Under the pieces are notes generated by a model. It was not told the DNA's origin, made no database searches, and was given only the letters and a program-made list of their open reading frames with translations. The position numbers were made by a program, and so were the translations under genes. A DNA stretch of 64,000 nt, from the NCBI GenBank assembly GCA_031292625.1, contig JARLGU010000030.1, forward strand, positions 62,001-126,000, given 5' to 3'. This document shows positions 26,001 to 30,158 of this stretch, piece by piece; the first letter of the stretch is position 1; each line of letters starts with the position of its first letter. Origin of the DNA: Capsulimonadaceae bacterium (GTDB lineage: Bacteria; Armatimonadota; Armatimonadia; Armatimonadales; Capsulimonadaceae).

Positions 26001-27484
<1,484 letters not shown>

Positions 27485-27532
27485 GGGCGCAAGAGACCTC
27501 GCTGCCCGCCAATGACGGGCTTAGAACGAACC

Positions 27533-27592
27533 ATGACACGAATAAGCATTTCGATTCTATCGTCGATTATTATTATGCGCCCGACCGGATGA
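27533..27592 (+). CDS. Putative isoleucine-rich attenuator leader peptide MTRISISILSSIIIMRPTG
   Basis: ATG ACA CGA ATA AGC ATT TCG ATT CTA TCG TCG ATT ATT ATT ATG CGC CCG ACC GGA TGA; six Ile codons in 19, immediately upstream of cimA. Confidence 0.72.
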   Translation: MTRISISILSSIIIMRPTG

Positions 27593-27646
27593 CGCTGGCA
27601 ACGCGCCGCGCCGGTCGGGCCTAACCCGCACGGCGCGTTATTTTTT
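27579..27646 (+). promoter_or_regulatory. Putative transcription attenuator (antiterminator / terminator switch) of cimA
   Basis: Stem A GCCCGACCGG(27579-27588)/CCGGTCGGGC(27611-27620) interleaves with stem B AACGCGCCG(27600-27608)/CGGCGCGTT(27631-27639) followed by ATTTTTT. Confidence 0.72.
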
Positions 27647-27733
27647 GTCTGGCTCACCGGCCAAAGCGATCCGGTGGGCGGGCGCGACGCCGGTGTGAAC
27701 TCCGGCATGGCCAGCAGGCCTGGGAGCAGTGAA

Positions 27734-29335
27734 TTGAAGCAGCGAATCGAAATCTACGATACGACCCTACGCGATGGAGCGCAGGGCGAAGGCATCTCGT
27801 TCAGCGTCGAGGACAAGGTCAAAATCGCCCTGCGTCTCGATGAGTTCGGCATAGACGTCATCGAGGGCGGCTGGCCCGGCAGCAATCCTAAGGACATAGA
27901 CTTTTACGAGAGGATGCGCGGCGAGACGCTCACGCGAGCAAAGCTCGCCGCGTTCGGCATGGTCCGCCGCCCGCACCGCACGGCGTCCGAAGACCCGCTC
28001 CTGCGCGACCTCCTTGCGGCGGATACGCCCGTCGTCACGATCGTCGGAAAATCGTGGGATTTCCAGGTCAGAGAAGCGATCAGAACTGAACTCGACGAAA
28101 ATCTGCGCATGATTGCGGATACGATCGCGTTTCTAAAGGCCGAAGGGCGTATCGTCTATTTCGACGCAGAGCATTTCTTCGACGGTTACAACGAAAACCC
28201 AGCGTACTCGCTGGCCTGCCTGAAGGCCGCCGCCGATGCGGGGGTAGACGTCAACGTCCTTTGCGACACGAACGGCGGGACGCTGCCGATGGACATCCAG
28301 CGGATCACTGGCGCGGTCCTCGCGGAGCTGCCCAACATACGCGCCGGCATCCACACGCACAACGACAGCGAATGCGGCGTCGCCAACGCGATCGCCGGCG
28401 TGCAGGCAGGCGCAACCCAAGTGCAGGGGACGGTGAACGGCTACGGGGAGCGAACAGGCAACGCGAACCTCATCAGCATCATCCCCGCGTTATCCGTCAA
28501 ACTCGGCTACGACCTGCTGTATCCGGACAGCCTCGCGCAGCTTTGCGAGGTGAGCGGCTATGTCGACGAGATCGGCAACGTCACCCAGCGCACCAACCTG
28601 CCCTACGTCGGCGTGTCGGCGTTCGCGCACAAGGCGGGCCTGCACGTCGACGGTATCCGCAAGCATCCGAAGACCTATGAGCACATCGACCCGGTCCTCA
28701 TCGGCAACGAGCGCCGCATCCTTGTTTCGGAGCTTTCAGGCGGCTCGACCATGATCGAGAAGGCGGAAGAGTACGGAATCTCGCTGACGAAAGGCAGTCC
28801 CGAGGCGCGCAAATTGCTGCGCACGGTGGCGGACCTGGAGAACAAGGGCTACTCGTTCGATGGGGCGGAAGCATCGTTCGAGCTTTTGCTCAAGAAGTCT
28901 ACCGGCGCCTACACGCCGCTCTTCAAACTCAAAGGCTACCGAGTCATCGTCGAACGCCGGGGCGAGGAGACGCAACCAATCACGGAGGCGACGCTGAAGA
29001 TCGAGGTGGGCGGCGTGGAACAGCTCACGGTCGCGGAAGGCGACGGCCCCGTCAACGCACTCGATGCCGCATTGCGAAAGGCGCTCGTCGGCTTCTATCC
29101 CGACCTGAGCAAAATTTCACTGACCGACTTCAAGGTCCGCGTGATTAACCAGGCCGAAGGGACGGCCGCGCGCGTGCGCACGATCGTTGAAAGCCGCGAA
29201 CACGCCGCCGGTCCCGACGGCGCTCGCCGCACCTGGAGCACGGTCGGCGTCTCCGAGAACGTCATAGAGGCAAGCTGGCGCGCCCTCGTGGAATCGATCG
29301 AGTACGGATTGATGCGGGGGAAAACAGCCGGGTAA
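27734..29335 (+). CDS. cimA: (R)-citramalate synthase
   Basis: IEIYDTTLRDGAQGEGISFSVEDKVKIALRLDEFGIDVIEGGWPGSNPKD; LeuA dimer domain at C-terminus; TTG start with GGGAG upstream. Confidence 0.92.
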   Translation: MKQRIEIYDTTLRDGAQGEGISFSVEDKVKIALRLDEFGIDVIEGGWPGSNPKDIDFYERMRGETLTRAKLAAFGMVRRPHRTASEDPLLRDLLAADTPVVTIVGKSWDFQVREAIRTELDENLRMIADTIAFLKAEGRIVYFDAEHFFDGYNENPAYSLACLKAAADAGVDVNVLCDTNGGTLPMDIQRITGAVLAELPNIRAGIHTHNDSECGVANAIAGVQAGATQVQGTVNGYGERTGNANLISIIPALSVKLGYDLLYPDSLAQLCEVSGYVDEIGNVTQRTNLPYVGVSAFAHKAGLHVDGIRKHPKTYEHIDPVLIGNERRILVSELSGGSTMIEKAEEYGISLTKGSPEARKLLRTVADLENKGYSFDGAEASFELLLKKSTGAYTPLFKLKGYRVIVERRGEETQPITEATLKIEVGGVEQLTVAEGDGPVNALDAALRKALVGFYPDLSKISLTDFKVRVINQAEGTAARVRTIVESREHAAGPDGARRTWSTVGVSENVIEASWRALVESIEYGLMRGKTAG

Positions 29336-29375: not shown

Positions 29376-30158
29376 CTATATGTTCGCCTTGATCCCGGCA
29401 ATCAGCGGCGTGTTCGAACGGCCGTCCGGCTGGTCGACATCGTGCGTGGATCCGACAATCGCAAAGACCGAGACGCTTTTGTTGAGCCAAAGCGCCGGTT
29501 GAACGGCAAAATCGACGAAGCCGGATCGCGAAGCGTGCTGTTCAGTCACCCAATGCACGTCACCGTCGAGCGTAACCGCGCGGCCGAAAAGCATGCCGTG
29601 ACGATACTGACCGTGCACCTGAGCGTCGGTGGCATAGTTCACTAAGATGCGGCGCGTATAGTATGCCCCCGACATCCAGGCGTCAAAGTTGGAGGATGTG
29701 CGGCGATAGCGGACGCCTACGTACTCCCACATGTCGTCCGGCAGCGTTGTCTCGTCGATATCGTGCGCGGATCGATGCCTGAGATAGAGCTCGCAATACT
29801 GACCGGGTTTCAATGCGTCTCGCGCGCCGACCTCAAACGTTCCCCAGAGGCGGCTCGGCTGGAAAACATACTTTGGTCCGAGGTACGACTCTATGAACAC
29901 ATCCCCGAGACCATAGAGCGACTGACGGCCGTTCGCGAAGAAGTTCGTGTCGCCGGAGTACTCGCCCGGATACCGGAACACGCCGCCGCTTGCATCGTAG
30001 CCAATTCGGGCGCACGTATGAAGCTCGTCCTTCAGCACCGTACACAACGGCAACGGAGGCCCTTGCGGCATCTGCGCCTGAGCCGGCACGATTGCGAGGG
30101 AAATGAGGACAGGAAAAAGAAAGGCGCTAAGACGCGCTGTTAGTCTTTGAGGACGCAT
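29376..30158 (-). CDS. Secreted/outer-membrane hypothetical protein
   Basis: Signal peptide SAFLFPVLISLAIVPAQAQ; beta-rich C-terminal region. Confidence 0.6.
   Translation of the reverse strand: MRPQRLTARLSAFLFPVLISLAIVPAQAQMPQGPPLPLCTVLKDELHTCARIGYDASGGVFRYPGEYSGDTNFFANGRQSLYGLGDVFIESYLGPKYVFQPSRLWGTFEVGARDALKPGQYCELYLRHRSAHDIDETTLPDDMWEYVGVRYRRTSSNFDAWMSGAYYTRRILVNYATDAQVHGQYRHGMLFGRAVTLDGDVHWVTEQHASRSGFVDFAVQPALWLNKSVSVFAIVGSTHDVDQPDGRSNTPLIAGIKANI

Follow-up and report, generated by a model that had tools for sequence, protein, structure and literature searches.

Citramalate synthase (CimA) is the entry to the isoleucine-only branch of biosynthesis, and the Armatimonadota family in which we met its gene comprises little-studied soil bacteria. 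In the stretch of 64 kb that was analyzed (the window), a short ORF rich in isoleucine codons, followed by overlapping inverted repeats and a run of T residues, lies between glnB and cimA and raises the question of what this element does to cimA expression. Most probably, the element is a ribosome-mediated (leader-peptide) transcription attenuator coupling cimA expression to isoleucyl-tRNA charging; this reading, drawn from sequence and folding models, builds on parts that are present, conserved and predicted to fold in alternative ways. It supports the first-pass annotation in substance: a classical mechanism for which both the target and the phylum are new. Attenuation of branched-chain amino acid (BCAA) genes by leader peptides has been described in enterobacteria, Actinobacteria, Corynebacterium and Staphylococcus (PMC1183508, PMC1262725, PMC10272879, PMC5794164). 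In the open-access literature we found no description of an attenuator, leader peptide or T-box of cimA or citramalate synthase, although such an absence carries little weight.

The Leader ORF and the Overlapping Stems Upstream of cimA

The genes of the region, all on the forward strand, are arranged in the order leuB (3-isopropylmalate dehydrogenase, 26001–27083; TIGR00169, 479 bits), a terminator-like small hairpin site (27086–27109), glnB, encoding a PII family nitrogen regulator (27146–27484; a full-length match under the NCBIfam equivalog cut-offs), the element and cimA (27734–29335; TIGR00977, 713 bits vs. the cut-off of 450). The cimA ORF may start at TTG 27734 or at the in-frame ATG 27707; the element is upstream of either, and its U-tract is separated from the start by 60–87 nt. 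The following ORF (29376–30158) is on the opposite strand; hence, cimA is apparently the last gene.

The leader ORF occupies positions 27533–27592 of the forward strand, and its translation by script, MTRISISILSSIIIMRPTG, ends in a stop codon that begins at 27590. The script check confirmed the previously noticed isoleucine-rich ORF between glnB and cimA, with its end at 27592 and its six Ile codons. These comprise one ATA and five ATT, whereas the four neighboring genes in the window prefer ATC (61 ATC, 16 ATT and 6 ATA). The sequence of the predicted peptide is hydrophobic, and the Shine-Dalgarno sequence before the ORF is weak. The last residues, R-P-T-G, are encoded by the 5′ arm of the first stem.

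This stem, designated A and regarded as the putative antiterminator, consists of 10 perfect base pairs: 27579–27588 (GCCCGACCGG) and 27611–27620 are exact reverse complements. It interleaves with stem B of 9 perfect base pairs, in which 27600–27608 (AACGCGCCG) and the terminator 3′ arm, 27631–27639, likewise complement each other exactly, and the U-tract ATTTTTT follows at 27640–27646. All coordinates of the two stems and the U-tract reported earlier proved exact. The terminator had been equated with stem B, and this was only partly upheld: the 9-bp stem is present, but the minimum free energy fold with a ribosome at the stop codon favored a second register, in which 27607–27613 pairs with 27631–27637 around an inner helix (27616–27619/27625–27628). 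The 5′ arm of this register overlaps the 3′ arm of stem A, which is shared with the favored terminator hairpin.

Such an arrangement in the window is not due to chance. A less stringent search (two interleaved perfect stems of 8 bp, T5 and a short ORF with its end in the first stem) returned the element before cimA as the sole match on both strands of the 64-kb window, and no comparable architecture was found in 1,409 simulated windows (2,818 strands, each of 64 kb, generated with an order-1 Markov model). The fold z-score of the element region by itself was modest (−1.6); therefore, the case rests on conservation. The search of 27440–27800 against Rfam at gathering and relaxed thresholds gave chance-level matches only, and a T-box identity (RF00230, with its AGGGUGGUACCGCG-type antiterminator) was rejected, as no match rose above chance. 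The interval 27647–27733, between the terminator and the cimA start, is GC-rich and contains three small hairpins (27652–27715).

Predicted Folding around the Translating Ribosome

A ribosome was placed in silico with its leading edge 12 nt beyond the first base of the codon in the A site, and the transcript downstream of it was folded. For the window sequence, equilibrium folding gave stem A a probability of 0.95–1.00 with the ribosome stalled at Ile codons 4, 6, 8 and 12, of 0.29 at Ile 13 and of 0 at Ile 14. With the ribosome at the stop codon, the probability of stem A was 0 and the terminator formed. The proposed switch between stem A on stalling and the terminator at the stop codon was reproduced in this way. 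The claim that stalling at the Ile codons frees the 5′ arm of stem A stood for the first four of them and failed for codons 13 and 14, where a stalled ribosome would cover stem A. As modeled, sensing falls to the first four Ile codons rather than to the entire run of three ATT.

The attenuator is expected to act as follows. With plentiful charged tRNA-Ile, the ribosome would reach the stop codon at 27590 and cover the 5′ arm of stem A, upon which the terminator (27600/27607–27639) would form and RNA polymerase would halt at the U-tract. When isoleucine is scarce, the ribosome would stall at Ile codon 4, 6, 8 or 12, and stem A would form, capturing the sequence that the terminator needs and letting the polymerase continue into cimA. 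In this scheme, transcription across the site, leader translation and readthrough in response to isoleucine shortage are all inferred.

With no ribosome present, stem A prevails in the fold of the window sequence. An untranslated leader thus seems to lack a protector hairpin that would hold the gene off, and none was found. This distinguishes the element from the trp attenuator, where such a hairpin prevents expression as long as the leader stays untranslated.

Agreement with the switch varied among the four relatives that carry the element (G001–G004). G003 resembled the window, with stem A at 0.89–0.94 for stalls at its first three Ile codons. Intermediate behavior was seen in G002 and G004, where stem A was only moderately favored, in partial agreement with the switch. 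In G001, equilibrium folding never favored stem A because another hairpin captures its 5′ arm.

Conservation of the Element in the Family

Seven genomes of the family were examined and six of them have cimA. The element precedes cimA in five, i.e., the window genome (G000) and the relatives G001–G004, four genera in all; in the sixth (G006), glnB and cimA are close together without a leader. A lack of conservation of the leader and the stems in relatives had been named beforehand as refuting the reading; instead, the leader, the position of its stop codon, stem A and the terminator recur in all four.

The leader peptides of the relatives read MYAFIQIIRSIIRHPAG (G001), MTHTTHLVIGIAISAGIMIICPAG (G002), MQYLLIEIAIFAGFTIMSPVG (G003) and MPKRTLDIAIRIMIIRPTG (G004), so the ORF was recoded yet remained rich in isoleucine. 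All five are short ORFs, predicted to be translated, in which isoleucine takes 26 of the 95 codons after the start vs. 5.7% in the four neighboring genes of the window (binomial P of about 1e-11, which is approximate because the leaders share ancestry); the other two frames contain 1/100 and 4/100 Ile codons. The peptide sequence varies otherwise, and what stays constant is the Ile content and the ending P-x-G-stop, common to all leaders because those codons constitute the 5′ arm of stem A.

In the alignment of the five elements, 90.9% of the stem A cells are paired, and the value drops to 56–58% when the alignment is slid by one column. Compensatory changes, with both sides altered from G-C to A-U, were seen in three cells in two pairs, among only five sequences in which invariant pairs dominate (6/11). 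Two mutually exclusive structures, one of them an intrinsic terminator, were found in the window. Terminators with long U-runs are likewise present in G001–G003, and the 3′ arm of stem A doubles as the terminator 5′ arm in G001. In G004, the terminator stem is kept with TTGTCTCC in place of a clear U-tract. In G001–G003, approximately 30–40 nt separate the end of the U-tract from the cimA ATG; this spacing is too small to accommodate a promoter and implies that cimA transcripts must read through the U-tract.

The surroundings differ among the genomes. G004 has the order ilvB, ilvN, leuA, leuB, glnB, ORF, element and cimA; the ORF separating glnB from the element (putatively acetyltransferase-like, by eye from its sequence) indicates that the element travels with cimA. 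In G002, ilvB, ilvN, ilvC and leuA were seen and glnB lies directly before the element. The window genome has ilvB and leuA on a contig other than that of cimA. This genome also has a threonine-deaminase-like (ilvA-like) gene (TIGR01127, above the cut-off); hence, the citramalate route is not necessarily its sole route to isoleucine.

Alternative Explanations

Terminators between two genes are common, and in the window the U-tract lies 60–87 nt from the cimA start; the element might merely terminate transcription of the leuB-glnB unit, with cimA transcribed from its own promoter and the Ile-rich ORF incidental. We looked for a sigma-70-like site between the window U-tract and the cimA start and found none, G001–G003 leave no room for a promoter between the U-tract and the start codon, and all five genomes with the element have an Ile-rich ORF that ends in stem A but differs in sequence, which makes this explanation improbable. 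Control of ribosome access to cimA or of Rho loading by leader translation and folding, without an intrinsic terminator, would account for G004, which keeps the leader and both stems and has no U-run, and could involve the hairpins at 27652–27715. We consider it very improbable, as U-tracts are canonical in four of the five genomes and the Shine-Dalgarno region of cimA lies outside stems A and B.

The hydrophobic sequence of the leader would also suit a functional small peptide, and it has been proposed that reinitiation after a leader ORF enhances translation of the gene that follows (PMC4833913). That the short ORF plays either role at cimA with no sensing of isoleucine is hardly credible, since the peptide is not conserved beyond its Ile content and the P-x-G end, and the terminator is left unexplained. 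A precedent for caution comes from Streptomyces coelicolor, in which altering the candidate codons of the ilvB leader had no effect (PMC1262725). Ribosome-mediated attenuation responding to isoleucine remains our preferred interpretation of the element.

Comparison with Known Attenuators

The element shares with the enterobacterial ilvGMEDA, ilvBN, leu and thr attenuators (PMC1183508) a product-rich short ORF, alternative stems, a U-tract and a biosynthetic target. It differs from them in the phylum, in cimA as the target and in Ile-only codons instead of mixed BCAA codons; no protector hairpin was found in the window sequence, and there is no sequence kinship. The ilvB leaders of Actinobacteria and the ilvB-II motif of Corynebacterium (PMC1262725, PMC10272879) similarly have a BCAA-rich short uORF overlapping a terminator and a BCAA gene downstream, but they precede ilvB and read isoleucine, leucine and valine together, whereas the window element precedes cimA alone and is predicted to read isoleucine. 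In the Staphylococcus aureus ilv-leu operon (PMC5794164), the leader peptide is also dominated by one BCAA and a terminator/antiterminator pair is present; in contrast, that peptide is Leu-rich and stands at the start of the whole operon, and its antiterminator sequesters the poly-U. With this element, the known range of leader-peptide attenuation would come to include the phylum Armatimonadota and the citramalate synthase gene.

Proposed Isoleucine Sensors of cimA in Armatimonadota

Genomes of the phylum (292) were searched for cimA and, by means of a covariance model, for the element. The model found only the five training genomes and gave one weak match in G291, which lies away from cimA and was judged false. 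A strict scan of 59 further Armatimonadota regions for an Ile leader and a terminator upstream of cimA returned none. In most other families with glnB upstream of cimA, the genes are close neighbors and no leader lies between them. Outside the phylum, two unproven candidates in the first scan for an Ile leader and a terminator before cimA came from Planctomycetota (L025) and Aquificaceae (L033).

In six genomes from other Armatimonadota families (L230–L233, L236 and L237; f36, f42 and f45), cimA is preceded by a T-box, with scores of 78.6–104.8 bits, three of the six above the gathering score. The specifier position reads AUC (Ile) in all six, which provides independent support for isoleucine as the signal. 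The position was checked on T-boxes of the window genome itself: that of ilvB (L148, G000:C15, 9736–9981, reverse strand) has the specifier CUC (Leu), found also in relatives (L146, L153 and L154), and that before valS (L239, G000:C60, 3351–3533, reverse strand; valS recognized by eye from the sequence) has GUC (Val). Another T-box of this genome, a weak match, precedes a threonine-synthase-like gene (L240, G000:C18, 493–698, forward strand).

The Ile T-box and the element share the gene, the tRNA-Ile charging signal and control at the level of transcription; the T-box, however, is a structured RNA that binds tRNA directly, has no leader peptide and bears no sequence relation to the element. 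By their sequences, two unrelated devices appear to sense isoleucine at cimA in Armatimonadota, the sensor differing by family. We lean slightly towards an exchange of the sensor within the phylum, T-box vs. attenuator, combined with layered control of the gene cluster in relatives where cimA lies at the end of ilvB...leuA, with a Leu T-box at the front and the Ile attenuator inside. Replacement of a T-box by a leader peptide has been documented for other genes, e.g., hisS in Firmicutes (PMC2965389), and the phylum may offer a comparable natural experiment on one tRNA-charging sensor replacing another. The data also suggest that the Ile-only step is controlled separately from the shared ilv/leu genes, which have the Leu T-box.

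In family f3 (L217, L218 and L223), short ORFs (MTRISARISQPAGLFRRR, MYQESRIIARISKSAVEPVRRC and MFRITTRDG) followed by terminators were seen upstream of cimA. The first 11 bases of the L217 ORF are identical to those of the window leader; the three loci have few Ile codons and a different fold, and we do not claim them as the same element. In G021, a tRNA-Ile gene (anticodon UAU; L218, 100–178, reverse strand) lies between a terminator and cimA in the same orientation as cimA. Upstream of cimA in G007 (L094), overlapping stems GCGTCCCCAC/GTGGGGGCGC and GCGCAAGG/CCTTGCGT precede TTTTGTTTT, possibly another attenuator without an Ile leader.
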